A DNA stretch of 64,000 nt from Thermococcus sp. AM4. GTDB lineage: Archaea; Methanobacteriota_B; Thermococci; Thermococcales; Thermococcaceae. This document shows, in pieces, positions 5,482-38,371 of this stretch (its first letter is position 1; the number at the start of each line of letters is the position of its first letter). The stretch covers positions 744,001-808,000 of the forward strand of contig NC_016051.1 of assembly GCF_000151205.2 (NCBI RefSeq), given 5' to 3'. The notes under the pieces were generated by a model. That model saw only the letters and a list, made by a program, of their open reading frames with translations, did no database searches and was not told where the DNA came from. The position numbers and the translations under genes were made by a program.

Positions 5482-5501
5482 AAAGAGGATTTAGAAAGCC
5501 A

Positions 5502-6179
5502 TTAGGAACCAACGACCCTACCGTATCTGAGCCTGTAAGTGGCGTCCGCGATGCCGATGAGCTCTGGATCATGGGTCGATACGATGATTGTCTTTCCCCT
5601 TTCCCTCAGCTCCCGGAGTATCTCAACGACTCGCTTTGAAGACTCCTCGTCCAGATAGGCCGTTGGCTCGTCCAGTATGACCACTGACGGATCCTTCGCG
5701 AGGGCCATGACTATAGAGGCCCTCCTGAGCTCACCGCCGCTGACCTCGGTGGGCTTCTTCGACAGCAGTTTCTCAATGCCGAGACGCTCCGCCAGATCAA
5801 CCGCCAGATCCCTGTGCTTACCGTCCAGTCTGCCCGAGGAGTTGAGTACGAGCTCTACGTTCTCCCATAGCGTGAGCTGGGAAACGAAGACCGGCTGTTG
5901 AAAGGAAATTCCAATTTCCCGCCTGAGGGCGAGCAGTTCCTTCTTGGGGAGCTCGTAGGGGTTTCTCCCGTCGTAATCCACCCTTCCCTCAGTCGGTTTG
6001 AGAAGCGTCCCAACGGCCTTCAGCAGGGTCGTTTTTCCCGAACCGCTCGGGCCGAACACGACCGTTATCCTTCCGGGGACAAATGAGCCGTTAAAGCCCT
6101 TAAGTGCAACGGTCTGGCTTTCTCCCGTTTTATACCTGACGGTTAGGCCTTCGCAGGTTATCTTCCAACCATTCGACAA
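5502..6179 (-). CDS. ABC transporter ATP-binding protein (LolD/MacB-type)
   Basis: A 225-residue ATPase with a Walker A GPSGSGKTT (about 42-50), Q-loop SFQQPV, ABC signature VSGGELRRAS, Walker B VVILDEP and an H-loop in IIVSTHDPE. The set and length fit the FtsE/LolD/MacB subfamily that energises FtsX-like permeases. It begins 3 nt after the stop of the permease at 6183-8639, so the two surely form one transporter. The substrate is unknown; candidates are export or extraction of lipids or peptides at the cell surface. Confidence 0.93.
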   Translation of the reverse strand: MSNGWKITCEGLTVRYKTGESQTVALKGFNGSFVPGRITVVFGPSGSGKTTLLKAVGTLLKPTEGRVDYDGRNPYELPKKELLALRREIGISFQQPVFVSQLTLWENVELVLNSSGRLDGKHRDLAVDLAERLGIEKLLSKKPTEVSGGELRRASIVMALAKDPSVVILDEPTAYLDEESSKRVVEILRELRERGKTIIVSTHDPELIGIADATYRLRYGRVVGS

Positions 6180-6182
6180 GGA

Positions 6183-8639
6183 TCACACCCCCTTAACCTT
6201 TCTCAGTATTGAAGCGAAGTAGAGGAGGAGCCCCGCGAAGAGGCCAAGCAGGGGCACGAGGCCGAGCAACATCAGCTTTCCGCTTACGAAACCTGTTGAG
6301 GCCAGGTAGTAGCCGTCCCTGATCATCGAGGCGGGAACAAAGGCCAGCACGAAGAGGATTGGAGCCACGACAGCCGGGAGAGCTAACGGCTCCTCCCCGT
6401 TGACCTTCATGAGCTCCGCCAGCTTTGAGAGCCTCTCCCCGTCCCTGAGGCCCACCACCAATCCGGTGGCGATCATCAGAACGCCGGAGAGCAGGGAGGG
6501 TATGAAACTCCTCGGGTCTCCAAACTGGGACTCAACGTGGGTGGAGATGCCCTTTAGAGACCACAGCTTGTCAAACGCTTCCGGATACGAGGCGGCCGTT
6601 CTGTTCACTTCTTCCATCGCTTCCCCAGTCGTTTTGGAGTCCCCGTTGAGCAGGAGGAACGCGGGTTTTGGGTTAAGGCCGTTTTTCCTCGCGACTTCAC
6701 ACGAGACGAGAAGGCCGTCGATGTTTCCGGGAAGCAGGTCAACGGTCTCATATGGGCCGGAGATCTCATGGGGGCTCCACTCATCGTCAACTACTGTGAA
6801 GGTGAGAGATTTTCCCGAAATCCGCACGGCCCCGGCCCTTTTGAGTTCGTCGAGGTAGTACTCTGGAACCACGATCGCCCCGGGGTTAGAGGACAGCTTG
6901 TGGTAAAGCAATTGGGCGGTCGTGCTAATCCCACCTGCCTTCTTCAGGAACTCCAGGAAGTCCCTGTCGTAGCATAGGAGCCTGCCATGGGTTGAATACG
7001 TCATCCCGCTACCTTGGACAACGGTACCGGCCTTCCAGAGGGTGGAGTAGACCACGCCCTTTCCCAAGACTGCCTCAAGGGTCATGTTGTAGACTTTTGG
7101 CAGCTCTTTTGAGTCCGCAAAGTTAATCGCCCCCGTGGCGCCGCCGCTGTAGGTGTCGACCACTGAGGCCAGCGAAACCAAAGGCGTCGAGAACAGCAAC
7201 CCCGTGTAGAGGAACAGCACCCCTATGGACACGATCCCGGGGAAGAGAAGCCTTGCAACTGCCTTGTGCCCGGGCTTTCCAACCCTCGCCGCGAGGAAAA
7301 CTAGCGAGAGGGCCCCGATTGAAATCAGAATTCCGGGTAGATACTTGAACGCCACCAGCGTGAGCAGCAATGAAGCGTCAGAGCTGCCGAGGGACAGGAG
7401 GTAACCCAAGATACCCGACGCGTAAAGTCTCAGCTGGAGGTTGTAATGGAGGAGAACTCCGAGGATGCCCAGAAGCACCAGTGGAAAAGCCACAAGGGTG
7501 TACCTTTTTCCGAGCTCCCGGCCCGCCAAAAAGTTCCTCAGGACGTAAACGAGCAGGAGCATCACAGCCGATAGGAGGGCGGCCCTTCTTTCGAGGAAGA
7601 GAGCCACCAGTGCAAGGGCAAGAAGAACGGCTCCCGCGGTTATTAGATCAAGAACGATTTTCCTTCCCCCGCTGGTCGAGATCAGGTACCTCATCCTCTC
7701 CTCGTCTTTCCTTTCCCGGCCCATTATGACGAGCAACGCGGGTAGGGCCGGGAGAAATAGAGCTATGTAACCCCACAGATAGTCCCAGAGGCTCCTCCCG
7801 GTGGAGGATTCCACCGCAAAAACCCAGCGGGGCGTTACAACCTTCATGACGACGGAGAGGTTGTGTTTAGCAGCCTCCCTGGAGATAGCCCGGTAGATAT
7901 CATCTACGCCCTGGCTTCCATCGGTTATAGCTATTATCCCCTGATCCCCCACGGAGAGCTCTCCCAGATCGTCTCCAACGCCGTAGGGCTTGAGAAGTTT
8001 TCTCGCGAAATCCGGAGAGGCTATACAGGCCCTATCATCGTACTTCTCCCAGCTCTTTAGAACCGCCCTGAGGACCCTGCTCTTCTCGTCGTTTCTCGGG
8101 AGAACCTTGACTGTACCGATCCTGATGGTGGCGATTCTGTCATAACCTAGGGAGCTGTCATAGTAATAATACTTTATTTTAACTCCTTCAATTTTCTCGG
8201 CGGCCATTTCGCCCGAAACGTAGCAGTCAGCGCCTTCATATCCCCCTATGAGGGGCACAAAAATTATCCAATCTAAATTAGACTTATGGTCCGAAACGTA
8301 CAGCGGAAGGTAAACTTTCGTGGCCCTTATTCCAGCGCTGGCAAGGATTTTCCGGACGTCGTTTACCGAGAGACCGCCATAAACCTTCACGGAACGAGGG
8401 GATTCAGCGCCAGTGGGGGCTTCTTTTTCGCTTTTCAGATAGATGATGCCCCCTTCATTGTAATCTTTTGGAAGAAACCGGAGCGAAAAGTAGTTACCCG
8501 AAAACTCCCCGAGCCTCATTTCGGTGGCCTGGTTTACCAGGGCGCTCGCCGTTGCAGGCAGTACTGCAACGAGGAAAACAAGGAGAAGGAAGGAGAGAAA
8601 AACCTTTGAGTAGTGCTTTATCATCGGTCTTATCTTCAT
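6183..8639 (-). CDS. FtsX-like ABC transporter permease with large ectodomains
   Basis: An 818-residue membrane protein. Residues 12-35 are a signal/anchor. An extracellular domain runs to about 285, then come about six membrane helices (290-500), a second extracellular domain (about 505-690) and a terminal cluster of membrane helices. The start at 8639 is set by GGAGGTGTTGGA just upstream. It is a paralogue of the truncated permease at 1-2162 and pairs with the ATPase at 5502-6179. The doubled hydrophobic core with long outside loops fits the MacB/FtsX fold. No specific substrate can be read from the sequence. Confidence 0.82.
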   Translation of the reverse strand: MKIRPMIKHYSKVFLSFLLLVFLVAVLPATASALVNQATEMRLGEFSGNYFSLRFLPKDYNEGGIIYLKSEKEAPTGAESPRSVKVYGGLSVNDVRKILASAGIRATKVYLPLYVSDHKSNLDWIIFVPLIGGYEGADCYVSGEMAAEKIEGVKIKYYYYDSSLGYDRIATIRIGTVKVLPRNDEKSRVLRAVLKSWEKYDDRACIASPDFARKLLKPYGVGDDLGELSVGDQGIIAITDGSQGVDDIYRAISREAAKHNLSVVMKVVTPRWVFAVESSTGRSLWDYLWGYIALFLPALPALLVIMGRERKDEERMRYLISTSGGRKIVLDLITAGAVLLALALVALFLERRAALLSAVMLLLVYVLRNFLAGRELGKRYTLVAFPLVLLGILGVLLHYNLQLRLYASGILGYLLSLGSSDASLLLTLVAFKYLPGILISIGALSLVFLAARVGKPGHKAVARLLFPGIVSIGVLFLYTGLLFSTPLVSLASVVDTYSGGATGAINFADSKELPKVYNMTLEAVLGKGVVYSTLWKAGTVVQGSGMTYSTHGRLLCYDRDFLEFLKKAGGISTTAQLLYHKLSSNPGAIVVPEYYLDELKRAGAVRISGKSLTFTVVDDEWSPHEISGPYETVDLLPGNIDGLLVSCEVARKNGLNPKPAFLLLNGDSKTTGEAMEEVNRTAASYPEAFDKLWSLKGISTHVESQFGDPRSFIPSLLSGVLMIATGLVVGLRDGERLSKLAELMKVNGEEPLALPAVVAPILFVLAFVPASMIRDGYYLASTGFVSGKLMLLGLVPLLGLFAGLLLYFASILRKVKGV

Positions 8640-26984: not shown

Positions 26985-29627
26985 ATGCGATTTAGGAGAA
27001 CCGTTATGTCGGTAGGCCTGGCCCTTCTCCTACTCCTAAGCGTGGGGGGGGCCGTTGCACTTTTGGAGCCACAGCCAAAGCCAGACCTGATCGGGGACCT
27101 GCCAAGGCCGGTGATAATCGGGATGAGCGTGCATAAAACCGTCTGCAACGGAAAGGCCACCATCGACGTCACGGTGAACAACTACGGGGGAAGCACCGCC
27201 ATGGGCACGCTCAAGGCCTACGTCGACGGAAACGCCGGGGACGGCGTGGCCATAGAGGTTGACCCATACCACCCAACGACCTTCACAGTAGAGGCCCCCG
27301 CAGGGCCCGGTGAGCATACTGTCAAGGTCGTTCTCACCTATCCGGGCGGAAGCGACTCGATGAGCAAAACGGCGACGCTCCTCAAGGATTCCGACTGCGA
27401 CTACCTCAGCGATCGGGAGGAATACGAATACGGAACCGACCCACTGAACAAAGACACCGACGGGGACGGTATTATCGACTCCCGGGACATGAACCCCGTT
27501 GGGGACTACAGGATAACGATCTACATCCTCAGGGCGAGGGCGCTGGACGATGTTGACAGTTCGATTACCGGTCACAACCCTGCGGACATGAGCCTCGACG
27601 TTACCGTGAACGGACAGACCAAAACGCTCCGCCTGACCGACAATCAGGACGACCTGGAGAGAAAGATCCCTGCCGGTGCGGATCCGCTCTTCAACCTTGA
27701 GGACTACGCAATAGCCAAGGCTACCTTCGACGTCCCGGACGACAGGGTTTTCGTCCCGATAACCTTCCACCTCTACGACAGAGATAACGATGACGGGACA
27801 AAGAGGACCGAAATGGACGTTTCCCCCGGTCCCGACACCGTTGCGAGGATAATGTACAACCTCAAAACAGGAACCTGGAGCGGCGACGATTATCCGGGGG
27901 ACGCGGAGAAGTACTTCGGTTACGGCCACCTGAGCGGCTGCGGCGACGGCTCGTGCGGCGTTTCTTCTCACGATCCCGACAAGGATCTGAAAGTCTACGT
28001 CAAGTACGAGAGCATACTGCAGAAAAAGGGAATCGACGGGAGAATTTTGAAGGTGTACTCGCCCGCCAACGTCAGTGAAGTAAGGCTGAAATCCGGAAAA
28101 GACACCATGATCATCAGAAAACCGGAGAGCGTCCACGTGGCTGAAGTTCTCCTGAGCAACGGGAGCGTTGTGAACGTCACCCTCGTCAACACATACAACG
28201 CCAGGATCTTCGACCTCAAGCCAATAAAGCCCCCCGTCAATCCGGACGTTCCCCTGGCCAGGAAGAACCTATCGAGCGTGGAAGTGATAGCCACCACCCC
28301 GGAGGAACCGTTAAAGGGTGAAGTTGAGATAATTCCACTGGAAGGCGGCCTCATCGATCCCGGCCTCGGGGACGTAGTTACGTACTCCTCCCAGGAGGAG
28401 CACGACGGGGAGATCTGGTTCGTCATCGTGCCGGACGATTCCGACGGGATACCCTTCTGGCGCGAGGTCGAGCTGAACAAAGAGCTGGAAGCGAACGGGT
28501 TCTCAGAGAGGTTCGACCCGGGCGACGGCTACATGATAAGAAGCTACTATCCAGAGCTCGCCGAAAGCCTGAACGAGATGGACGAGCTCGGCGACTACGA
28601 CGGTGACGGTGTTCCGAACGCGGTTGAGGTTTTGATCGGGAAGGATCCTGCGAAGAGAGATATACTTGGAATCCAGCTCAACGTTTCCGTTGAGTGGAAG
28701 ATGAGCGATGAGGACAAGGAAAAACTGGTTTACAGCATCAGGAAGGCGAGCGACTTCATCTACGACTACACGGACGGCTACGCGATGATTACGAGGATAA
28801 CGGTCTGGGACGACAAGAGGAACTGGGATAAGGCTGATGTTAGGGTGCACGATACAACATGGGTGATTCCCCAAACTGGTTTTGAGATTTTCTATCAGGG
28901 GTGGCCAAAATCTGCAATAGGAGGATATTGGACTGGCGGAAACGTTATGATGCCTGAGAGGTATCAGGGTGGACCAGGGAACGGTGGTTCCATTGGTGAC
29001 GTTAGCTGGGGCAGGACTTTGGGCCACGAGCTCGGTCACTACGTCTTCTGGCTTGGGGACGAGTACATGGACTGGCACGGTCATAGTTACCAGCTCTGGT
29101 ACTATGGAACACTGGAGGCCGCGGCAACTGACTCGACAATAATAGCAGGCGGGGTACTCTCCGCATTGGATTTAACATACTACGCCTATAAGATACAGTT
29201 TGGGGACTTTATGAATATTCATTCGGTCATGAATAAACAGTGGAAGTGGAGTGAGCTCAGCACGCCCAGGGATTACGAGAAGTTCAAGAAGGATGCGAGT
29301 GAGCTATGGGACAAAACCGATATAGTGTGGAAACTCCTAGGATACAACTCACCCGACGACATGCTCACAGACCAATGGGGTAACGTAACAAAGAACTCTA
29401 CAACCGACTATGGAATTTGGCATTGCTCAGCATGGGAGGCTGTTTATTCATTCATCACAGACCATAACACTCCTACTTGGATTGTTAATAAGTTTAATAA
29501 CCCTAAGACACCCCCACGCCGTCAGAGAATCGTAATATCAGCGTCTTTGGCAATTGATAAATGGTTTAAACCCAAAACAGGCCCATATACTGGCGTTGGT
29601 TATTTCATGGAGGTGACTTGGGAATGA
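26985..29627 (+). CDS. Secreted zinc metalloprotease with calcium-binding repeats
   Basis: 880 residues from the ATG at 26985 (GAGGTGG upstream). Residues 7-28 form a signal peptide. About 45-125 is a CARDB-like adhesion domain. About 135-170 has calcium-binding repeats (DSDCDYLSDREEYEYG, DTDGDGIIDSRD), and another (GDYDGDGVPNAVEV) is near 535. Residues 681-685 are HELGH within HELGHYVFWLGDEY. The HExxH plus downstream DEY resembles the HExxHxxxGxxDEY of CLCA-type metalloproteases, though the Gly position is Trp here. DNA before about 28850 is GC-rich like the chromosome; DNA after it is AT-richer like the array. The stop overlaps the first array gene by ATGA. It probably acts outside the cell; the target is unknown. 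Confidence 0.85.
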   Translation: MRFRRTVMSVGLALLLLLSVGGAVALLEPQPKPDLIGDLPRPVIIGMSVHKTVCNGKATIDVTVNNYGGSTAMGTLKAYVDGNAGDGVAIEVDPYHPTTFTVEAPAGPGEHTVKVVLTYPGGSDSMSKTATLLKDSDCDYLSDREEYEYGTDPLNKDTDGDGIIDSRDMNPVGDYRITIYILRARALDDVDSSITGHNPADMSLDVTVNGQTKTLRLTDNQDDLERKIPAGADPLFNLEDYAIAKATFDVPDDRVFVPITFHLYDRDNDDGTKRTEMDVSPGPDTVARIMYNLKTGTWSGDDYPGDAEKYFGYGHLSGCGDGSCGVSSHDPDKDLKVYVKYESILQKKGIDGRILKVYSPANVSEVRLKSGKDTMIIRKPESVHVAEVLLSNGSVVNVTLVNTYNARIFDLKPIKPPVNPDVPLARKNLSSVEVIATTPEEPLKGEVEIIPLEGGLIDPGLGDVVTYSSQEEHDGEIWFVIVPDDSDGIPFWREVELNKELEANGFSERFDPGDGYMIRSYYPELAESLNEMDELGDYDGDGVPNAVEVLIGKDPAKRDILGIQLNVSVEWKMSDEDKEKLVYSIRKASDFIYDYTDGYAMITRITVWDDKRNWDKADVRVHDTTWVIPQTGFEIFYQGWPKSAIGGYWTGGNVMMPERYQGGPGNGGSIGDVSWGRTLGHELGHYVFWLGDEYMDWHGHSYQLWYYGTLEAAATDSTIIAGGVLSALDLTYYAYKIQFGDFMNIHSVMNKQWKWSELSTPRDYEKFKKDASELWDKTDIVWKLLGYNSPDDMLTDQWGNVTKNSTTDYGIWHCSAWEAVYSFITDHNTPTWIVNKFNNPKTPPRRQRIVISASLAIDKWFKPKTGPYTGVGYFMEVTWE

Positions 29628-30538
29628 AAAAGGTTTTAGTTGCTCTCCTCTTGATTCTGCTCCTTTCCTTCTTCGCATATAACGCGTACACTTACCATCA
29701 GCTCTCCTCAGCGGAAGGAGCTTACAAGTTAGCGGGAATTTCAGGAGATGAAAAGCTCATTGCGGTCTACCATGATGCTCATTTCTGGCAGTTCGCAACG
29801 TACAATCCAAAAACCAACACGCTCAAGCTCTACACGGTTGAGCAATCTTCTATATTCTGGCTGAAGAGCATAACAATGGAAAGCGCGAAGGCTTTAGTAA
29901 ACTACACTCCCTTAGCTTTAGACTTAAACCAGCTCAAACGATACAAGCCTCACAGTAAAGCACTTCTCTTCAAAACCCTCGGCTGGAAGTACGACTACCA
30001 AATCAACGGTTCATACTGGGCAAACTTAAGCGAAATCATCCGGCCGGGAGAAAAATATTATCGGATTTATGGGCTCGGGAGCAGTTCTGGACTTTGGATT
30101 AAGTCAAAAGCCGTGTGCAGAAAAACCACCCTCGAGGCTGTATGCTACGGAACAGTGGGGACTAATGGGATTCTCGTGATCCCAGGATTTAAGGATAGTA
30201 AAATGCTGTGGGTAGTTGAAGGAGTTAAGGGAAATCCCCAAGTGGCATTCTTTTATCCTGGAGTGGTGCTCAAGACTGTGACAGAGGAGAACAAAGTATT
30301 CACGTACTCCAGCGAAGATGGTGACGTAATTGAAAGCATCGTCCAAAAGCTTGAGGGAAAAAATCCCTTTTACCTAGAAGTATGGTTTTCAAGAAAAGCC
30401 AAGTGCCCAGGTTACGGACAAATTCTGGCCAACAGGGGAACGTTTTGTGAGCTCTATGCTTGTTACAACGACAATTCAACAAATATAGAACTTGAGAATA
30501 TTTCCTGCATTCCAAACCTTGAACTAAGAAACGGGTGA
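29624..30538 (+). CDS. Array protein A1, membrane-anchored, unknown function
   Basis: 304 residues. One N-terminal membrane helix (about 4-20) then an extracellular domain with N-x-S/T sites and several Cys. It opens with the subfamily A signature YTYHQLSSAEGAYKLAGISG and FWQFATYNPKT. After about residue 65 it diverges from A2-A4 although the motifs NYTPLALDL and NGILVIPG remain. 120 nt (29658-29777) are identical to the start of A4. The ATG overlaps the protease stop, and its ribosome site GGAGGTGA lies within the protease's last codons, so its translation is coupled to the protease. As immediate partner it is the best candidate inhibitor or protector, which is inference. Confidence 0.75.
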   Translation: MKKVLVALLLILLLSFFAYNAYTYHQLSSAEGAYKLAGISGDEKLIAVYHDAHFWQFATYNPKTNTLKLYTVEQSSIFWLKSITMESAKALVNYTPLALDLNQLKRYKPHSKALLFKTLGWKYDYQINGSYWANLSEIIRPGEKYYRIYGLGSSSGLWIKSKAVCRKTTLEAVCYGTVGTNGILVIPGFKDSKMLWVVEGVKGNPQVAFFYPGVVLKTVTEENKVFTYSSEDGDVIESIVQKLEGKNPFYLEVWFSRKAKCPGYGQILANRGTFCELYACYNDNSTNIELENISCIPNLELRNG

Positions 30539-30545
30539 GGGAGAC

Positions 30546-31502
30546 ATGAAAAAACTTACTGTGATTTTTGGACTCCCTCTAGCTCTCCTCTTGCTCTTCT
30601 CTTACTCATACCTCCCAAGCGAGAACATGAACGAACTCTACCAAAAGATTCCAGAGCAAATGAGAGAGAATTCTCAACTTATCGCGGCTTACTACTCCTC
30701 CCAAACCGGCTTTAGCGGCTTCAGAGAATACCAATTCGCATTCTACAATCCAAAAGAGCGGACAATTAGCATTTACACGTTCAAAATCTCCAAACTCTTG
30801 AAAATCTGGCCAAGAATGACAGAAAACAAAATAACCTGCAAGACCCCATTCAACTACTCAATCCTCGCAACAAGTCCGAAAAAACTCAAAAACTTCACAA
30901 ACTGCAACAACTGCAGAATACTCCTCTACACGGGCAGAATTTACAAGAATGAGGAAATTGAGAGAATTCAACCAAGAATAGATAACATTCTGCAGCGTAA
31001 TCGGGAATACTGGAAGGTCAAGGGGATAAAAAGCTCTGAACTCTCTGTCGGAACCGTTAGCATGTATTCAGGAGACACTATAAGGGATATCGGATTCGAA
31101 GGTTACCCTGGAGCGCTTCTCCTGCCCAATCAAGGCTCGGAAGTTGGAAAGGCCGTATGGATCGAGATTTACCTAAAGAACAATAAAACAGTTGTGAACG
31201 TCCACTATCCAATGAACATAACCCTCAGCGCGATAGCCAAATACAAGATTACCAATAGCTCACTGTGGAGTCCTGACTACACTAAACTCCAGAATATGCT
31301 GAGTGAACTGGAAAAATTCGGGAAGTACTCAAAGAAGGCATGGAGATTTAAAGTCTCAATATGGGATCCAGATACAGTATGGATCGAATGGATAATCCCC
31401 AGTAAGAACACGTATAGCTATCTCAAAATCGGGAACCAACCCATTCCCATTAGAAGGATATACTTCAAAAAGGTCTACATAACCCACTGTTCAAATAACT
31501 AA
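30546..31502 (+). CDS. Array protein B1, membrane-anchored, unknown function
   Basis: 318 residues with one N-terminal membrane helix (about 4-20) and extracellular remainder. Subfamily B signature: YLPSENMNELYQKIPEQMRE, then SQLIAAYYSSQTGF, QFAFYNPKERTISIY, KTPFNYSILATS, a Cys pair in NCNNC, and GYPGALLLPNQGS. These parallel the A motifs (KLIAAYHD, QFATYNPKT, NYSPLALD, GRILVIP), so A and B share a fold. It is close to B2 in the first half, including 56 identical nt, and divergent later. GAGGGAGAC precedes the ATG, 7 nt after the A1 stop. No enzyme motif seen. Confidence 0.75.
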   Translation: MKKLTVIFGLPLALLLLFSYSYLPSENMNELYQKIPEQMRENSQLIAAYYSSQTGFSGFREYQFAFYNPKERTISIYTFKISKLLKIWPRMTENKITCKTPFNYSILATSPKKLKNFTNCNNCRILLYTGRIYKNEEIERIQPRIDNILQRNREYWKVKGIKSSELSVGTVSMYSGDTIRDIGFEGYPGALLLPNQGSEVGKAVWIEIYLKNNKTVVNVHYPMNITLSAIAKYKITNSSLWSPDYTKLQNMLSELEKFGKYSKKAWRFKVSIWDPDTVWIEWIIPSKNTYSYLKIGNQPIPIRRIYFKKVYITHCSNN

Positions 31503-31531
31503 CACGTGATAGACAAGTAGGAGGGCAGACC

Positions 31532-32464
31532 ATGAGAACTCTGGCTGTCTTTGGTTTCTTTTTGATCATCCTTTCCTTCTTCGCCTATAATGCCTACACT
31601 TACCATCAGCTCTCCTCAGCGGAAGGAGCTTATAAACTGGCAGGGATTCCAGGGGATGAAAAGCTCATCGCTGCATATCACGATAATGGCTTCTGGCAGT
31701 TCGCAACGTACAATCCAAAAACCAGAGAACTCAAAGTCTACTACCTCAGCCAGGGTCATCCATTAGATTTTAGAATCAAAAAGACAAAAACCGTAAAAAC
31801 ATCATTAAACTACTCTCCCCTCGCCCTTGACTTGAAACTCCTTAAGAAAGCGCCGGAAGAGACTCCAGCGTTGCTCTTCGCGGGGAAATGGTACACTAAG
31901 GAAAACCCACCAAAATTCCCTACAGTTGAGCAAATCCTTAAAGAGTGCGGCAACAAAACAATAAGGAGATTGAGTGCTTATTATGCCGAAAAGGAACTCT
32001 GGATTGGGGCAATAACCATGCAGACAGGCGATGCAATTTATGGAGGAATAGGGCCCGGGAGAATCCTCGTAATACCAAGTTTGAGATCCTACATGGAAAA
32101 ACCCTTTGTGTGGCGTGTTGAAATTCCAGCAGGAAGGGATAGGTCCCAGCACATTGTCTATTACCCAGGCGGAATTGCAATCAAGGGATATGGAGAAGTC
32201 GTTCTCCCAAAAGCGTTTGTGATGGAGAAATGGGTTCTTGAAAAGTCTTTAAACGCAACATTGAAAGCACTGGCAAAGCCTACTCCAATCTCAGGCTCTG
32301 CAAGAAGTTTTGTCGATCTCACGATATCCTGCTGGGGCTCAAACTCAATAGAGTGGAGCATCATGTACATTACCAGATACTGGCCCGGCATCTCAATGCA
32401 GAACAAAATACCGGAAGGTTACGTTCTTAGTGACTATGGTCAAACCCCCGGAAAATGCCAATAA
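31532..32464 (+). CDS. Array protein A2, membrane-anchored, unknown function
   Basis: 310 residues: membrane helix at about 4-20, then YTYHQLSSAEGAYKLAGIPG, KLIAAYHDNGFWQFATYNPKT, NYSPLALDLKLLKKAPEETP, LLFAGKWYTKENPPKFPT, ELWIGAITMQTGDAIYGGIG and GRILVIPSL, ending in a Cys-containing tail. This is the most complete subfamily A layout, shared with A3 and A4. AGGAGGGC precedes the ATG at 31532. Unlike C1, D, A4 and B2, no protease-tail remnant is visible before it. The function is unknown. Confidence 0.75.
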   Translation: MRTLAVFGFFLIILSFFAYNAYTYHQLSSAEGAYKLAGIPGDEKLIAAYHDNGFWQFATYNPKTRELKVYYLSQGHPLDFRIKKTKTVKTSLNYSPLALDLKLLKKAPEETPALLFAGKWYTKENPPKFPTVEQILKECGNKTIRRLSAYYAEKELWIGAITMQTGDAIYGGIGPGRILVIPSLRSYMEKPFVWRVEIPAGRDRSQHIVYYPGGIAIKGYGEVVLPKAFVMEKWVLEKSLNATLKALAKPTPISGSARSFVDLTISCWGSNSIEWSIMYITRYWPGISMQNKIPEGYVLSDYGQTPGKCQ

Positions 32465-32496
32465 CAAGAACAGCCAATTCACAGGGGTGATCCGGG

Positions 32497-33426
32497 ATGA
32501 AGAAGTTCCTTGCTTTGGTTTTACTTTTCCTATTTTTCGCCTATAACACCTACACTTACCATCAGCTCTCCTCAGCGGAGGGAGCTTATAAACTGGCGGG
32601 AATTCCAAGCAGTGAAAAACTCATCGCTGCATATCACGATAATGGCTTCTGGCAGTTCGCAACGTACAACCCAAAAACTCGGAAACTCAAAGTCTACGCC
32701 ATTTACACTGACAAACCAATCCTCCCATGGGGAAGGGACGTAAAGAGCGTAAAAACACCCTTAAATTATTCCCCACTCGCGCTCAATCCAAAACTCCTCG
32801 AAAAAGCGCCAAAAGAGACTCCCGCATTACTCTTTGCCGGAAAATGGTACACAAGAAAAAACCCGCCAAAATTCCCAACGGCAGAGCAAATAGCCAAAGA
32901 GTACGCTAATAAGACCCTGCGAGAACTCACGGCATACCACGCCAGAAAAGAACTCTGGATCGGAGGTATAACCATCCAAACCGGCGATGCGATTTACGGA
33001 GCAATTGGGTCAGGTGGGGTTCTGGTAATACCAGATCTAAAACAAACGGGAAAAAGTTTCATTTGGGAGGTCGAGATACCTATCGACTCAAACGCTTCTA
33101 AGTTTGTTGTCAGGTATCTCACTAATATGACAGTGAGAGGAATAGGTATACCCACTCCATCCAACGATTTCATAGTGACCAATGAAACTGTAGAGAAAGC
33201 ACTAAGCCTATTTGAGAAATCGCAGGTTTCGAAAGCTAATCCCATTTTCCTTGTGATTACCTTATACTCAAGGAGTTCGAATCTTGTAAAGATAAGCATC
33301 ATGTCGATCACTACATATCAGAAGGGAATATCAATGATGGACAAAATTCCCCGCGGGGACACTCTTGGAGATTACCAAGAAATTCCGATAAACAACACAG
33401 AATCAAAGTCTAAAATGCCCGACTAG
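32497..33426 (+). CDS. Array protein A3, membrane-anchored, unknown function
   Basis: 309 residues, same layout as A2 (membrane helix, YTYHQLSSAEGAYKLAGIPS, FWQFATYNPKT, LLFAGKWYTRKNPPKFPT, ELWIGGITIQTGDAIYGAIG). The middle shares a 44-nt identical run with A4 (32809-32852 against 35678-35721). The last third differs from A2 and A4. Its leader GGGGTGATCCGGG before the ATG matches the leader of C2 at 17 of 19 positions across the start, although the two encoded proteins belong to different subfamilies. Confidence 0.75.
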   Translation: MKKFLALVLLFLFFAYNTYTYHQLSSAEGAYKLAGIPSSEKLIAAYHDNGFWQFATYNPKTRKLKVYAIYTDKPILPWGRDVKSVKTPLNYSPLALNPKLLEKAPKETPALLFAGKWYTRKNPPKFPTAEQIAKEYANKTLRELTAYHARKELWIGGITIQTGDAIYGAIGSGGVLVIPDLKQTGKSFIWEVEIPIDSNASKFVVRYLTNMTVRGIGIPTPSNDFIVTNETVEKALSLFEKSQVSKANPIFLVITLYSRSSNLVKISIMSITTYQKGISMMDKIPRGDTLGDYQEIPINNTESKSKMPD

Positions 33427-33432
33427 CATCAA

Positions 33433-33459
33433 TACCAAGTGGAGGTGGCTTGGGGATGA
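33433..33459 (+). pseudogene. Protease C-terminus remnant before C1
   Basis: In frame this reads YQVEVAWG then TGA, matching the protease end YFMEVTWE then TGA. Its TGA overlaps the C1 ATG (ATGA), as the real protease stop overlaps A1. GGAGGTGG within it is the C1 ribosome site. This is the shortest and least certain of the four remnants. Confidence 0.5.
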
Positions 33460-34415
33460 ACATCGTTAAGGCTTTGTTTGTTTTTCTTTTTGTCTTTCTC
33501 CTCTTGCTTGGCGGATTAGCTTATACAAAGCACACAAAGAACGAGAGATTAAAAGACCCCAAATTCGTTTACGAACACTACCTAAAAACCTATGAAGCCC
33601 AGAATTACACCCTCCTTGGAGTCTACTTTGAGCTGGACAGGAGTTCAATACTCAACCCGTGGAAGCCTAAGTGGGAGTTCTATCTCTACAACTCAAGCGG
33701 AAAACTCGTGAAGCTTACAATAACGCCAGACGGAGAGAGCAAAGAAAAAGCCAAAACAATCCTCAACTACACAAACCTGACGGTACCTATTAATCAAGTC
33801 CAAAACCTACCAAAATACGAGGAAAGATTCAGGGAGATAGTATACCTGCCCAGAGAAGGAAAACTGATAGACCATCCGGCAAGGGGTTACAGTGATTTCA
33901 GGAAAGTATGTGTAAAACTCAGCAGAATCCTTGACAACAGAACCTTCAAACTAATCAAAACCATTCGTGGAGGAGTCTATCATTGGTTAACCTTGAAGAA
34001 CACGAGTATTGTTGGTGGTGTTTTTACGGTAATGAGTTCTACTGATCCGCTTTGCGAGGGCACTTGGCTGGTGGTTGAGCCGTACAACGAAACGCACGAT
34101 TTAGTAAAAGTCATTTACCCGCACGGGAATGCAAGTACACTAGTAAAAGCACTAAACCTGCCAGTCTTCCAAGGAAAAGAGTATTTGGGACTTTTGAAGA
34201 AAGTGGAGGCGGGACATTGCTCGGCTGTGGAGGGTACTTTAGTGAATGCCACTGGAATTTACGTTAATCCTCACGCTCAGGAAATCTTCAACCAAACGGC
34301 ACCAAAAGCAATAAAGGAGAGGAGATGCTTCACAATCATACAAGTGATAGTCCTGAAAAACGGCACGGTGAAAACATGGGCAAGAGGAACAATATGGTGT
34401 GCCAGAGGAGACTAA
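33456..34415 (+). CDS. Array protein C1, membrane-anchored, unknown function
   Basis: 319 residues. Membrane helix at about 5-22, then the subfamily C signature KDPKFVYEHYLKTYEAQNYT, WEFYLYNSSGKL, ILNYTNLTVP, CVKLSRILDNRTFKLI, WLVVEPYNETHDLVKVIYPHG and a late VLKNGTVKTWARGTIW. C2 shares all of these. The W-F-YN and NY-x-L positions line up with the A and B motifs, so it is a divergent branch of the same superfamily. Many N-x-S/T sites fit an extracellular location. The ATG at 33456 is chosen because of GGAGGTGG 7 nt upstream. Confidence 0.75.
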   Translation: MNIVKALFVFLFVFLLLLGGLAYTKHTKNERLKDPKFVYEHYLKTYEAQNYTLLGVYFELDRSSILNPWKPKWEFYLYNSSGKLVKLTITPDGESKEKAKTILNYTNLTVPINQVQNLPKYEERFREIVYLPREGKLIDHPARGYSDFRKVCVKLSRILDNRTFKLIKTIRGGVYHWLTLKNTSIVGGVFTVMSSTDPLCEGTWLVVEPYNETHDLVKVIYPHGNASTLVKALNLPVFQGKEYLGLLKKVEAGHCSAVEGTLVNATGIYVNPHAQEIFNQTAPKAIKERRCFTIIQVIVLKNGTVKTWARGTIWCARGD

Positions 34416-34428
34416 ATACCCACACACT

Positions 34429-34464
34429 AACACTGGCTACTTCATGGAGGTGGTCTGGGGGTGA
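34429..34464 (+). pseudogene. Protease C-terminus remnant before D
   Basis: Reads NTGYFMEVVWG then TGA, matching the protease end GVGYFMEVTWE. Its TGA overlaps the GTG start of D (GTGA). It has no start codon or upstream frame of its own. Confidence 0.65.
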
Positions 34465-35309
34465 AGAAGATCGTTGCCTTTTTGTTTTTGTTCCTTACAT
34501 TCACAGTGTCTTGGATACTGTGGGAGAGCCATGAAGCCGTGTCCTGTTTTAACTCTCCATATTGCATGACGGAACATCTTAACATAACAGACCACATACT
34601 CATCATGCAACACAACGGAAACGAATGGAGAATCGTTACCTACACCGCGGGGAAACTGTCCCTCCATAAAATCGAGCTCAGCGGTTTTATAATCCCCAAC
34701 ATCAGAGACTCCGTGAAAAGCGTCGAGACACAAGTTGATTATTCACCCCTGACTTTTGAAAACAATGCCCTCAAAGGCTTGAAAGGAACAATTGGGCTCA
34801 TTGCGAAGTTCAACGGAAGCGTTAAGGCCATTCCACCCACTGAGCTTCAAAAACCCCTTGCTTATGAAGAATTACTGAAACTGTGTTCTTCATGCAAGCT
34901 CCTCCTTGGCGAGGGCGGGAATTTCCTAAGGCTCGGCTACACCAACCTCACAAGTGGTTACGTGGTCATGCCCTCCCCTAAAGGTAGCTCCAGATTCGTC
35001 CTTGAGATCCAATCTTACAACGCAACCAAAGATGTCATAATCGCCAAATACCCAATGGGAACCGTCAAGGGATATATCCCAAAGCTTGATCTTCCTCGTA
35101 TCGGAAACACGCGCATTCCAACTGACGCTTCCCATTACCTCGAATCCGCTTGGGGTATCCTTGTAACAAAGAATGAAACAGTACTCAATCCAGATCCGTG
35201 GAGCATTGTTGAGGAACTAGGAGAATGCAGAATGGTGTACAAAATTACAATTTACAACAACGGAACAATAGAAAAAACAGAATACGGGCTGCCCTGCTGG
35301 AGAAGGTAA
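34461..35309 (+). CDS. Array protein D, membrane-anchored, unknown function
   Basis: 282 residues, the only member of subfamily D. N-terminal membrane helix (about 4-18), then extracellular sequence with EWRIVTYTAGKLSLHKIEL, VDYSPLTFENNALK, a Cys pair LCSSCKLLLG, GYVVMPSPKGS and a C-terminal IYNNGTIEKTEYGLPCW. The VDYSPL and GYVVMP motifs correspond to NYSPL and GRILVIP in subfamily A, and the ending resembles C1 and C2. The GTG start occupies the position that is ATG in the other cassettes and is preceded by GGAGGTGG. The function is unknown. Confidence 0.72.
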   Translation: MKKIVAFLFLFLTFTVSWILWESHEAVSCFNSPYCMTEHLNITDHILIMQHNGNEWRIVTYTAGKLSLHKIELSGFIIPNIRDSVKSVETQVDYSPLTFENNALKGLKGTIGLIAKFNGSVKAIPPTELQKPLAYEELLKLCSSCKLLLGEGGNFLRLGYTNLTSGYVVMPSPKGSSRFVLEIQSYNATKDVIIAKYPMGTVKGYIPKLDLPRIGNTRIPTDASHYLESAWGILVTKNETVLNPDPWSIVEELGECRMVYKITIYNNGTIEKTEYGLPCWRR

Positions 35310-35324
35310 AACTAAAACCCTTAC

Positions 35325-35363
35325 AATAGTGTTGGCTACTTCATGGAGGTGAGGTGGGGATGA
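35325..35363 (+). pseudogene. Protease C-terminus remnant before A4
   Basis: Reads NSVGYFMEVRWG then TGA, matching GVGYFMEVTWE of the protease. Its TGA overlaps the A4 ATG, and GGAGGTGA within it is the A4 ribosome site. Confidence 0.65.
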
Positions 35364-36289
35364 GAGCTCTGCTTACTCTCCTCTTAATTTTGCTCCTTTC
35401 CTTCTTCGCATATAACGCGTACACTTACCATCAGCTCTCCTCAGCGGAAGGAGCTTACAAGTTAGCGGGAATTTCAGGAGATGAAAAGCTCATTGCGGTC
35501 TACCATGATGTTCATTTCTGGCAGTTTGCCACTTACAACCCTAAAACTCGGGAGCTTAAGGTGTACTACGTCGGTCAAAATCTCCCCCTGCTCTTCAGGA
35601 CAAAGAAAACAAAAACCGTGAAAACGCCGTTAAACTACTCCCCACTCGCCCTTGACTTAAAACTCCTAGAGAAAGCCCCAAAAGAGACTCCCGCATTACT
35701 CTTTGCCGGAAAATGGTACACGAGAGAAAACCCGCCAAAATTCCCAACGGCAGAACAAATCGCCAAAGAATACGAGAACAAAACCCTGAGAGAACTCACG
35801 GCATACTACGCCAGAAAAGAACTCTGGATTGGCAGCATAATCCTCCAAACGGGAGATGCCATTTATGGAGGCATTGGGCCAGGACGAATCCTTGTGGTTC
35901 CGGCTCTGCAGGACAACATTAGCTTCGTCTGGTATGCTGAAATTCCAGTTAATGCAAATGTTTCACTGAAAAGAGCCGCGTACCCGGGAGACATTACAGT
36001 GAAGGGAACCGGAAAGACTAGCCTTTCGACGAGACCCTTTATAATTACAGGGAGGATATTGAACAGGGGACTAACTTCAGCTTTGCGTTCAATTGAAGAG
36101 TATCAAGCAAAGGCCGGGCAAAAAACAGAGTTCGCATCCATAACCTTCTACTGTTACCCTGAGAATATTACTTGGGGTTTGATATTTTTAGACGAGTACT
36201 GGAAAGGAATTTCAATGGAAAGGAAAATCCCAAGGGCCTACGGCCACATAGATGTTGGTGACACTCATGAGAAATGCAACAAAACCTGA
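35360..36289 (+). CDS. Array protein A4, membrane-anchored, mosaic, unknown function
   Basis: 309 residues with the full subfamily A layout. The first part is identical at DNA level to A1 for 120 nt (35391-35510), while the middle matches A3 (44 identical nt at 35678-35721) and the last third is its own. It is therefore a recombinant of array members. Motifs seen are YTYHQLSSAEGAYKLAGISG, FWQFATYNPKT, LLFAGKWYTRENPPKFPT, ELWIGSIILQTGDAIYGGIG and GRILVVPAL. The ATG at 35360 has GGAGGTGA 7 nt upstream. Confidence 0.75.
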   Translation: MRALLTLLLILLLSFFAYNAYTYHQLSSAEGAYKLAGISGDEKLIAVYHDVHFWQFATYNPKTRELKVYYVGQNLPLLFRTKKTKTVKTPLNYSPLALDLKLLEKAPKETPALLFAGKWYTRENPPKFPTAEQIAKEYENKTLRELTAYYARKELWIGSIILQTGDAIYGGIGPGRILVVPALQDNISFVWYAEIPVNANVSLKRAAYPGDITVKGTGKTSLSTRPFIITGRILNRGLTSALRSIEEYQAKAGQKTEFASITFYCYPENITWGLIFLDEYWKGISMERKIPRAYGHIDVGDTHEKCNKT

Positions 36290-36290
36290 A

Positions 36291-36350
36291 AATCCAAAAA
36301 CAGGCCCGTATACTGGCGTCGGCTACTTCATGGAGGTGACTTGGGGATGA
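36291..36350 (+). pseudogene. Protease C-terminus remnant before B2 (longest)
   Basis: Reads N then PKTGPYTGVGYFMEVTW, then G and TGA. The shared 17 residues equal the protease C-terminus, with mostly third-position DNA differences (CCA/CCG, GTT/GTC, GGT/GGC, TAT/TAC). The TGA overlaps the B2 ATG. It follows the A4 stop immediately and has no start codon of its own. Confidence 0.8.
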
Positions 36351-37324
36351 AGAGATCTCTTATCCTCTCTAGCCTTCTTTTGATCTTTCTCTTGCTCTTC
36401 TCTTACTCCTACCTCCCGAGCGAAAACATGAACGAACTCTACCAAAAAATTCCAGAGCAAATGAGAGAGAATTCCCAGCTCATTGCGGCTTACTACTCTT
36501 CCCAAACCGGCTTTGATGGCTTCAGAGAATACCAATTCGCATTTTACAATCCAAACGACCAAACACTCAGCATTTACACTTTCAAAATTTCCAAAATATT
36601 GAAAATCTGGCCAAGAATGACAGAAAACAAAATAACCTGCAAGACCCCATTCAATTATTCAATCCTAGCAACAAGCCAGGAAAAACTCAAAAACTTCAAA
36701 AACTGCAACAACTGTCAGCTCTTCCTCTACAAGGGCAGGATTTACAAGAACGAAGAAATCGAGAGCATTCAACCAAGACTCTCGGAAGTGTTGAAAGCAA
36801 ACGAAAGCTACTGGTGGGTTCAAGTCCTCGGAGCCAGCGAACTATCAACAGGAAATATAATAGGCTCCTCTGGCGATGCTGGAGAAATGTTTGGTCTATC
36901 AGGGTACCCAGGATTGCTGATTCTTCCGGCAGGAAATAACGCAAGCAGGGGAGTAATCATTGCGATTCAACCGTTGAATGAAACTCATGAGGTTATCAGA
37001 ATACACTTTCCGCTGAACGTTACTTTTGAATTCGTGGAGAGACATTATGGCAACCCAGATTTTCCCCTCTGGGATTTGGAGAACTTGTCAAGTGCTGTTA
37101 AGCGCTTGCAGGCTTTTAAGATTGAACCAAAACCCTGGCGCTGGGAGGCCACACTAAGCGGCAAATACGCCGGAATAGCATGGTTCACACAATCAGGAGC
37201 GTACTACGAATACGAAATACATCCTCAGTCAAAGTGGATTTATAATGGTGACTTCACAATATCGCGGTTCGAGTTCAGGTGTAGGAGAGGAGGTGCATCC
37301 CCATACTCATACTACTACCCATAA
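36347..37324 (+). CDS. Array protein B2, membrane-anchored, unknown function
   Basis: 325 residues, subfamily B. The membrane helix and the first 130 residues are nearly identical to B1 (YLPSENMNELYQKIPEQMRE, QFAFYNP, KTPFNYSILATS, NCNNC), with 56 identical nt at 36599-36654. The later part diverges, with GYPGLLILPAGNN and a Cys/Arg-rich end. The ATG at 36347 sits on the TGA of the long protease-tail remnant, with GGAGGTGA as ribosome site. The function is unknown. Confidence 0.75.
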   Translation: MKRSLILSSLLLIFLLLFSYSYLPSENMNELYQKIPEQMRENSQLIAAYYSSQTGFDGFREYQFAFYNPNDQTLSIYTFKISKILKIWPRMTENKITCKTPFNYSILATSQEKLKNFKNCNNCQLFLYKGRIYKNEEIESIQPRLSEVLKANESYWWVQVLGASELSTGNIIGSSGDAGEMFGLSGYPGLLILPAGNNASRGVIIAIQPLNETHEVIRIHFPLNVTFEFVERHYGNPDFPLWDLENLSSAVKRLQAFKIEPKPWRWEATLSGKYAGIAWFTQSGAYYEYEIHPQSKWIYNGDFTISRFEFRCRRGGASPYSYYYP

Positions 37325-37337
37325 CGGAGGTCGGAAG

Positions 37338-37439
37338 ATGAAGGGACTTCTCATGGTTTCAGTTTTTGTCTCAATCCTTTTGCTTTTCGGGATGACTAAA
37401 GATAAGCTCAATAACCTGAATTGGGGTGATCCTAGATGA
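37338..37439 (+). CDS. 33-residue membrane peptide, probably truncated array member
   Basis: ATG at 37338 with GGAGGTCGG upstream. It encodes an N-terminal membrane helix (MKGLLMVSVFVSILLLFG) like that of the array proteins, then TKDKLNNLNWGDPR and a TGA that overlaps the C2 ATG (ATGA). It looks like an N-terminus that lost its ectodomain and now serves as a translated leader for C2. A functional small membrane peptide cannot be excluded. Confidence 0.5.
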   Translation: MKGLLMVSVFVSILLLFGMTKDKLNNLNWGDPR

Positions 37440-38371
37440 AGCGCATAATGTTGCTTTCCCTTGCCTTGCTCTTTCTTTTAATTGGAGGCTGGACGTATCA
37501 TCTCTACACCAAAAACGAACAACTAACGGATCCAAGCTTTGTCTATGACCACTATCTCAAACCCTATGAGGCTCACCATTACAGATTAGTTGCAGTGCAG
37601 TACACACTTAAACCAGGTTTCATCGTTCAATGGGAACCCCACTGGAAAATTTACCTGTACACGGATCACAGACTTCTTGAACTCGATGTGGACTACAGAG
37701 GGGGAAGTACAAGGAACTATTCGACTGTTCTGGACTACTCAACGATCAGCACCTTAGTAGAGAATTTTCGAAATTTGGATCTGCCAGCTAGGGACTATTC
37801 AACGTGGATCTACGTTCCCAATGAAGATAGACTAGTTGAATATCGTGACAAGTGCATGAAACTTGAGAAAGTGCTCGACAATAGGACGATAAAGTTGATA
37901 AACTCAACGTTTAGCAGAGATCTTCCCAATCCAAGGGATCTTAAACTCATTAAAATGAAACCCATCGGAGGGGTTTTGGCGTTGCACTATTACCGGGGCT
38001 GCAAATGCTCGGCCATGTGGGCTGTATTCAGCCCCTACAATGAGACCCACGATCTGGTGTGGGTAGTTTATCCATGGGGAGTCGTGAAGGGCTACTCACC
38101 CGCGTTAAAGGTTCAGCCTTTTAATGGCACGTACTATCTCAAACTTGCGGACAAACTAAACAATAGGTACTGTGAATTCCTCGGGGGGGTCATTGTAAAC
38201 GCGACTGGAATATACGTTAATCCCAATGCTGAAGTTGTCTTTCGAAAAGTTATTGAGGAGGCCAAAAAAGATAGGCGACGGCTTATAATCCCGAGCATAA
38301 CAATATACAGAAACGGCACTATAGATGAAAGGGGAATAGGCGTTATGTGGCCTTCTTACGGATCCGGGTAG
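37436..38371 (+). CDS. Array protein C2, membrane-anchored, unknown function
   Basis: 311 residues, subfamily C: membrane helix at about 4-20, then TDPSFVYDHYLKPYEAHHYR, WKIYLYTDHRL, CMKLEKVLDNRTIKLI, WAVFSPYNETHDLVWVVYPWG, VNATGIYVNPNAE and IYRNGTIDERGIGVMW. It is a paralogue of C1 throughout, but without long identical DNA runs, so the two copies separated earlier than A1/A4 or B1/B2. It is the last full member of the array. Its ATG overlaps the stop of the 33-residue peptide. Confidence 0.75.
   Translation: MKRIMLLSLALLFLLIGGWTYHLYTKNEQLTDPSFVYDHYLKPYEAHHYRLVAVQYTLKPGFIVQWEPHWKIYLYTDHRLLELDVDYRGGSTRNYSTVLDYSTISTLVENFRNLDLPARDYSTWIYVPNEDRLVEYRDKCMKLEKVLDNRTIKLINSTFSRDLPNPRDLKLIKMKPIGGVLALHYYRGCKCSAMWAVFSPYNETHDLVWVVYPWGVVKGYSPALKVQPFNGTYYLKLADKLNNRYCEFLGGVIVNATGIYVNPNAEVVFRKVIEEAKKDRRRLIIPSITIYRNGTIDERGIGVMWPSYGSG

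Follow-up and report, generated by a model that had tools for sequence, protein, structure and literature searches.

The 64,000-nucleotide window analyzed here, i.e., the whole stretch G000:C1:744001-808000 of the closed 2,086,428-bp genome of Thermococcus sp. AM4, contains a gene for a secreted protease followed by an array of nine genes for membrane-anchored proteins. We propose, at a probability of about 0.7, that this locus is part of a polymorphic extracellular toxin–immunity system of the Thermococcaceae, in which a secreted protease is paired with a surface-displayed cognate immunity protein and trailed by a bank of retained immunity proteins. The original prediction, made from the letters of the window, had likened the locus to polymorphic toxin–immunity loci. 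The adjacency of protease and partner, their co-variation, standalone catalytic cassettes and protease scars within the array support this likeness; harm to rivals by the protease, its inhibition by the array proteins and a protective effect of the array against foreign variants are what we infer.

The layout of the locus is as follows. The protease gene (26985–29627) encodes 880 amino acid residues from an ATG with GAGGTGG before it, and its stop codon and the first start codon of the array share bases (GGAATGA). The array genes, all on the plus strand between 29624 and 38371, begin at 29624, 30546, 31532, 32497, 33456, 34461 (a GTG), 35360, 36347 and 37436, and are spaced by 7 to about 110 nt. 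Their products have 282–325 residues, against a first estimate of about 280–325. The open reading frames (ORFs) thus lie where the original prediction had placed a protease gene overlapping the first of nine same-strand genes, and the product of 26985–29627 has the signal peptide and the HExxH motif expected of the secreted metalloprotease it had described. The guanine plus cytosine content of the protease gene is 56.8% before window bp 28810 and 47.5% after it; the array has 44.3% and the flanks 54–55%. A change in the same direction is found within 16 of 17 long proteases.

The nine array genes define a superfamily, designated ARR1, whose proteins have an N-terminal membrane helix and an ectodomain. 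A second surface-anchored family, ARR2, is found behind other proteases, and its members combine a signal peptide with a C-terminal CGP-CTERM anchor. The surface topology of both families is a prediction. Pairing and co-variation were scored in stretches fetched for holding a match, with counts per hit locus. An intact tail is present in 37 protease-type ORFs or fragments, a number that includes short tail fossils and excludes five tail-less protease-type ORFs; 23 of the 37 have ARR1 and 13 have ARR2 as the next gene. The sole exception is a tail fossil at the end of an array. That is, protease homologues regularly lacking a partner gene, a pattern that had been named as damaging to the prediction, were not seen, since a gene of one or the other family comes next in 36 of 37 cases.

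The protease and the next gene also vary together. Co-variation was analyzed by Mantel tests with 2000 permutations on 29 pairs in which the protease has both HExxH and tail (19 with ARR1, 10 with ARR2). Distances in the variable C-terminal part of the protease correlate with those of the next gene at r = 0.63 for ARR1 (n = 19) and r = 0.92 for ARR2 (n = 10), with 0 of 2000 permutations as high in each case. For the second gene the correlation is r = 0.09 (499 of 2000, n = 12). Thus, the C-terminal type of a protease is tied to the gene immediately behind it, as the original prediction had asked to be checked, and not to the one beyond. In 28 of the 29 pairs the nearest neighbor in the C-terminal part also predicts the family, ARR1 or ARR2, of the partner.

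Comparison of loci shows that the C-terminal part and the partner are exchanged as a module. The proteases of L089 and L092 are 81% identical in the N-terminal part and 36% in the C-terminal part, and their partners are 27% identical; the corresponding values for L072 and L073 are 81%, 37% and 19%. L087 and L092 (N-terminal 81%, C-terminal 32%) have partners from different families, as do L087 and L089. Across these swap pairs, N-terminal identity is 75–81%, C-terminal identity 28–37% and partner identity, within a family, 19–27%. A protease C-terminus with its partner is found at 95.1% DNA identity over 1868 nt in two genera (L073:11334-13201 and L090:12122-13979), likely a recent transfer. 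The window protease matches that of L063 (genome G019) at 82.5% DNA identity in the N-terminal part, up to window bp 28844. The toxin-like layout first suggested for the locus holds to the extent that a conserved N-terminal part is joined to a variable C-terminal part. The latter is not a wholly swapped domain; rather, it is a conserved core with hypervariable segments and a near-invariant end.

Traces of former proteases are found inside the arrays. Six standalone catalytic cassettes of 209–369 residues, with HExxH and tail, lie within arrays, each directly followed by an ARR gene. Among 89 array genes that do not directly follow a protease-type ORF, 23 have a remnant of the protease tail scoring at least 10 bits upstream; none of 396 control genes, i.e., the other genes of the same stretches, has one (Fisher P = 8.7e-19). 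An earlier test at 8 bits gave 17 of 67 ARR1 genes, 5 of 11 ARR2 genes and 2 of 345 controls; the 10-bit test has cleaner labels, six more loci and a wider upstream stretch. In the window, the junctions before 34461, 35360 and 36347 exceed 10 bits, a shorter candidate before 33456 is apparent by eye only, and the remaining four junctions have none. The features of the locus, all on the plus strand, are listed below; scores of remnants are from the hidden Markov model (HMM) of the tail.

26985–28810 (boundary approximate), plus strand: conserved N-terminal part of the protease, with signal peptide, TSP3 (calcium-binding type) repeats and the start of the catalytic domain.
28811–29573, plus strand: variable C-terminal part of the protease, with a metzincin-like catalytic core, HELGHYVFWLGDEY and hypervariable segments.
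29574–29627, plus strand: near-invariant protease tail, KTGPYTGVGYFMEVTWE and stop; the last codons hold the ribosome-binding site (RBS) sequence GGAGGTGA and overlap the next start codon.
29624–30538, plus strand: array gene 1, ARR1 type A, N-terminal anchor and ectodomain; predicted cognate immunity protein of the window protease.
30546–31502, plus strand: array gene 2, ARR1 type B by profile.
31532–32464, plus strand: array gene 3, ARR1 type A by profile; structure modelled.
32497–33426, plus strand: array gene 4, ARR1 type A by profile.
33439–33459, plus strand: possible short protease-tail remnant, VEVAWG and stop, seen by eye and overlapping the next start; HMM scores of only -1.0 and -0.5 bits.
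33456–34415, plus strand: array gene 5, ARR1 type C by profile.
34429–34464, plus strand: protease-tail remnant, NTGYFMEVVWG and stop, 14.6 bits.
34461–35309, plus strand: array gene 6, ARR1 type D; identity to L063 12187 is 84%.
35328–35363, plus strand: protease-tail remnant, SVGYFMEVRWG and stop, 20.2 bits.
35360–36289, plus strand: array gene 7, ARR1 type A by profile.
36285–36350, plus strand: well-preserved protease-tail remnant, PENPKTGPYTGVGYFMEVTWG and stop, 45.4 bits.
36347–37324, plus strand: array gene 8, ARR1 type B; identity to L063 8155 is 90%.
37338–37439, plus strand: possible array-gene remnant, a 33-residue ORF with only an ARR-like N-terminal hydrophobic segment, seen by eye.
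37436–38371, plus strand: array gene 9, ARR1 type C by profile.

The array genes have their closest relatives elsewhere. For 89 of 96 array genes that share their array with another member of the family, the nearest relative lies in a different genome; for the other 7 it lies in that same array. Compared with first-position genes at other loci, 34 of 83 non-first genes have a match of at least 60% identity and 9 of 83 one of at least 80%. Window gene 5, for example, is 90% identical in protein and in DNA to the first-position partner of the genome's own second protease (L061), and window gene 2 shares 86% identity with the gene that directly follows the protease of G057 (L072). Since most nearest relatives lie elsewhere, first-position genes are matched and scars mark some of the junctions, the array looks like a store of genes that once stood first, here or in other genomes, and not like the product of tandem duplication. 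Three small ORFs (L070:8111-8446, L085:7359-7565 and L067:15559-15804) have the start of an ARR1 gene fused in frame to a protease tail, pointing to deletions that joined an array gene to a cassette behind it.

The proposed mechanism is as follows. The toxin would be the secreted, metzincin-like protease, with a conserved delivery part and a catalytic core bearing hypervariable segments. The next, overlapping gene would encode its own surface-anchored immunity protein, either ARR1, with its helix at the N-terminus as anchor, or ARR2, anchored at the C-terminus by CGP-CTERM; on the surface of the producer, the immunity ectodomain would bind the protease variant that matches it and block its action. 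Recombination within the protease gene may exchange the variable region together with the partner gene. The displaced protease would then decay to a cassette or a tail scar, and its immunity gene would be retained. The nine genes of the window would in this scheme be one cognate immunity gene and eight retained or captured ones directed against other variants. A broader picture, to which we give even odds, is an extracellular arms race among protease toxins that differ mainly in their hypervariable segments, with a heritable bank of surface inhibitors taken from rivals by recombination at a few shared sites.

Other explanations must be weighed against this one. The ARR proteins may be surface receptors or substrates of the protease, subject to regulated shedding or signalling, so that the co-variation would reflect co-evolution of enzyme and substrate. 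Enzyme and substrate would indeed co-vary too, and both the protease and the ARR proteins are predicted to be extracytoplasmic. This explanation sits poorly with partner genes kept after the protease has decayed to a scar, with partners at the protease-less loci L064, L097 and L125, and with a bank of up to twelve partner genes (L063). A specific substrate is less expected in such settings because it should not persist without its protease, and we consider a receptor or substrate role improbable. To a similar, low degree we credit the idea that the locus serves self-recognition or surface variation, i.e., kin discrimination or evasion of viruses that use surface receptors, with the protease trimming or selecting surface tags. 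Hypervariable surface proteins are common to several species, and VARTIG, a module of the same archaeal order with a layout like that of polymorphic toxin systems, was given non-toxin hypotheses in the relevant passages of its description (PMC8416519). Surface variation as such does not lead one to expect a catalytic domain that adjoins and co-varies with a single neighbor, or an HExxH motif kept in 15 of 15 aligned full-length sequences.

A more mundane possibility is a protease secreted for nutrition, whose own inhibitor or chaperone protects the cell during export, and an array that accumulated by accident. The overlap of the protease and first partner genes would fit such a function, and peptides are given among the growth substrates of Thermococcales in the part of PMC8416519 that bears on them. 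Hypervariability, shuffling of cassettes, orphan partners and reuse of sites are unexpected for a housekeeping enzyme, and we rate this explanation very unlikely. Finally, nine same-strand paralogues could be taken for a surface-protein family that was duplicated in tandem and came to lie behind a protease by chance. As 89 of the 96 genes are most closely related to a gene of another genome, and as protease tail scars lie at internal junctions, we give tandem duplication next to no credence.

Several observations weigh against the toxin–immunity proposal. A variant-specific substrate or receptor would co-vary with the protease equally. The conserved core before the active site also correlates with the ARR1 partner (r = 0.28, 0 of 2000), though not with the ARR2 partner (r = -0.06, 1016 of 2000), and so does the tail, at r = 0.21 (2 of 2000) for ARR1 and r = 0.79 (0 of 2000) for ARR2. 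Relatedness contributes to these values, without explaining the difference between next gene and second gene. Segment-wise sub-tests cover 136–153 of 171 pairs for five ARR1 segments and 21–36 of 45 pairs for four ARR2 segments. The first genes of the window and of L063 are 82% identical and the C-terminal parts of their proteases only 47%. Some pairs of loci are unswapped, e.g., L062 and L086 (N-terminal 85%, C-terminal 89%, partner 91%), and no swap is seen between L069 and L072. As to the scars, no tail remnant reaches 10 bits at five of the eight junctions within the window array (one of these has the by-eye candidate), nor at 66 of the 89 array genes overall. The larger gene pool in other genomes somewhat favors the count of 89 against 7 for nearest relatives. 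The final 17 residues of the protease are conserved, contrary to a classical polymorphic toxin, and the AlphaFold2 model of the protease is of low confidence, with a mean predicted local distance difference test score (pLDDT) of 53.5.

The better part of that model has the order strand–helix–strand–strand–strand–HExxH–helix. In the HExxH motif, H681, E682 and H685 are invariant in the 15 aligned full-length sequences, the window protease included, and a downstream methionine (residue 749 in the window; M220 of A3) is invariant in 19 of 19 catalytic parts, with a placement like that of a Met-turn. The metzincin hallmark motif is HExxHxxGxxH/D. HELGHYVFWLGDEY departs from it in the glycine and in where the third ligand is placed, and so does the alignment with the nearest solved structure by sequence, the M64 IgA protease 9ekk (E = 0.013), in which HExGHxxxxLxDEY and the later Met-turn-like methionine are aligned. 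A second-look structural alignment gave metzincins, by title, in nearly all of the 50 best rows, at Z scores of 6.1–8.7, a middling range. The Pfam M64 model gave no significant match, the best E value being 0.0062, in 3 of 19 members, and Reprolysin_3 (PF13582) has no match in the genome. The protease resembles M64 enzymes and other metzincins, if weakly, in its HExxH region and Met-turn-like methionine, and we call its catalytic core metzincin-like. The N-terminal part has TSP3 repeats (TSP3_bac, 5.3e-6). In the alignment, the segments separating the conserved motifs are hypervariable, and the final 17 residues, KTGPYTGVGYFMEVxWG, are almost invariant, their codons containing the RBS sequence for the next gene. 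We note that this tail (window 29574–29627) is the most distal piece of an otherwise variable region, and that its conservation as protein sequence goes further than the RBS.

The original prediction had sorted the nine array proteins into subfamilies A to D and held that they belong together. All nine match, at E values of at most 1e-50, a profile grown from them as seeds (704 ORFs from 40 stretches). In an independent test, each profile left out the type to be found, and residues 1–22 were cut off. Built from type A relatives alone, the profile recovers the two B genes (1.6e-31 and 1.1e-29) and D (2.1e-9). The A+B profile finds C gene 33456 (3.8e-6) and misses 37436, and the D-only profile finds both C genes (6.9e-18 and 6e-12) and all four A genes (5.1e-7 to 2e-8). 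The C-only profile, from 8 sequences, finds D and no A or B window gene. Because the cross-type profiles find one another, the nine genes form one superfamily, with C tied in via D, and the lack of a shared fold that would have told against the grouping was not seen for ARR1 at profile level, one ectodomain having been modelled. A type could be assigned to 65 of 77 ARR1 proteins. The best pairwise identities within the window array are 26–61%.

The claim of a single N-terminal membrane helix per protein agrees with a Kyte–Doolittle scan, which finds a single N-terminal hydrophobic segment in 8 of the 9 array proteins (32497 falls below the cut-off), and with the model of 31532, which has a helix at residues 2–27 and a beta-rich ectodomain (pLDDT 84.5, predicted template modelling score 0.86). 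A simple scan places an N-terminal transmembrane segment in 72 of 80 ARR1 proteins. Among ARR1 pairs, 22 of 1596 have a similar first part (>60%) and a dissimilar second part (<35%), and none shows the reverse. In a half-wise test of ARR1 (11 pairs; 58 of 82 proteins splittable), the two halves are not separated (r = 0.61 and 0.57).

No Pfam or NCBIfam model matches any of the nine array proteins above its cut-off, and a Foldseek search of the PDB with ARR1 returned nothing at E values of 0.001 or below. A VIA-align match to 4exr (Z 7.3, rmsd 2.5, 95 residues) may mean little and was not used. The sole PADLOC match has an E value of 0.02 and falls on the membrane segment of array gene 8. Seven proteins scanned against PHROGs, among them 5 of the 9 array proteins, gave no match at E values of 0.1 or below. 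A viral or plasmid origin was rejected: a search with the protease alignment found no relative in IMG/VR, and one with the catalytic domain none among the plasmids of PLSDB.

The single partner superfamily first proposed holds for the window array. Across loci there are two unrelated partner families, ARR1 and ARR2; kinship between them was rejected, hhalign giving a probability of 22% over 14 columns of the signal peptide. CGP-CTERM (TIGR04288) is found in 20 of 21 ARR2 proteins at E values of at most 1, the best being 3.1e-7, and ARR2 member 1 scores 25.5 bits against a cut-off of 21. Weak ARR2 matches covering the CGP-CTERM anchor only were not counted. Separate family profiles identify L077:2840 as an ARR2 protein. 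A lone, distant ARR2-like gene of about 29% identity (L127:5539-6291, genome G026) is possibly an outgroup of the partner family.

How does the module compare with known systems? In the relevant passages of Zhang et al. (2012, PMC3482391), zincin peptidases are among the toxin domains of polymorphic toxin systems, poly-immunity loci are described, and all but a few of the immunity proteins then identified are cytoplasmic. The present loci resemble the systems described there in having a conserved delivery part, a variable C-terminal effector, an adjacent partner gene, standalone cassettes and poly-partner loci. They differ from them in that the partners, in both families, have a predicted anchor at the cell surface, and in that one catalytic fold is varied, with an almost invariant end, and unrelated toxin domains are not exchanged. 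VARTIG, as set out in the corresponding passages of Makarova et al. (2021, PMC8416519), is a hypervariable module of immunoglobulin-like (Ig) proteins of Thermococcales, centred on arCOG07710, with a conserved serine and the motif D[ND]NxxxG[GD] at the C-terminus as its marks; there, the authors identified no toxin. The module described here shares with VARTIG the archaeal order, a large secreted protein in first place, downstream membrane proteins, a variable C-terminus and shorter homologues of the C-terminus within the array. Unlike VARTIG, it has an HExxH protease with a GPYTGVGY tail instead of arCOG07710 Ig proteins. By eye, the VARTIG motif is not present at the aligned protease C-termini, which end in GPYTGVGY and a few residues. 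The window protease has no CARDB match at E values of 1 or below, its C-terminal part being the HExxH domain. The protease–ARR module is distinct from VARTIG.

In the E-type colicins, the nuclease–immunity families show one catalytic scaffold diversified into many immunity specificities. The present proteins differ in being proteases rather than nucleases, in that they would act outside rather than inside the cell, and in having banks of putative immunity genes. A search of the literature by title and abstract found no earlier description of the module; a mention in Makarova et al. 2019 (mBio, on archaeal polymorphic toxins) is possible.

Experiments have shown little of the weapons that archaea use against one another, as the relevant passage of PMC8416519 says of predicted archaeal polymorphic toxins. 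The effector in this module is concrete, its enzymatic activity is predicted, it is matched by a single partner, and some species of the order are genetically tractable; for these reasons, the question of an anti-archaeal weapon becomes directly testable. If the proposal is correct, polymorphic toxin systems would come to include an extracellular protease neutralized at the surface by two unrelated immunity families anchored at opposite ends, and earlier replacements of one toxin by another could be read from the tail scars in the array. The protease–ARR pairs also constitute a natural set for the study of how protease–inhibitor specificity co-evolves at high temperature.

The distribution of the module was surveyed in 115 genomes of the phylum. 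All matches in these genomes of one phylum are within the Thermococcaceae, a family for which 94 genomes were counted, and 12 contig loci are all assigned to Thermococcus or Thermococcaceae. A protease C-terminal region extending beyond the tail is found in 20 of the 115 genomes, and all 20 have ARR1 or ARR2 (Fisher P = 9e-19). ARR genes without such a region occur in four genomes: G026 (distant), G032, G038 (broken) and G050, where the start of a protease lies at the contig end. G020 has the tail only. Array genes away from a protease, which had been named as counting against the prediction, do occur: six ARR loci (L064, L065, L097, L123, L124 and L125) are protease-less, and a tail fossil lies near L065, L123 and L124. 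The genome of the window has four loci, i.e., the window itself, L061, L062 and L123. The last of these (G000:C1:476000-490000) has four ARR2 genes at 5383–8334 and no protease, with a broken protease tail upstream.

Matching of flanking genes shows that the same chromosomal sites are reused with different contents. One site, at a 460-residue gene that we take from its sequence to be a sugar kinase, holds the window, L063, L066, L074, L081, L083 and, as a fossil only, L098; its other flank, a gene of a 237-residue type, is common to the window, L063, L081 and L098. A second site, flanked by what we read as a HIT-family gene and iorA, holds L072, L080, L082, L089, L092, L095, L096, L097, L125 and L126. 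The third site holds L068, L071, L075, L123 and L124, and its flank is presumably a translation-factor GTPase gene, judging from the sequence. In L098 (G020:C1:895000-912000), the fossil near 7975–8186 consists of a protease tail followed by about 40 residues of the start of an ARR1 gene, with flanks as in the window.

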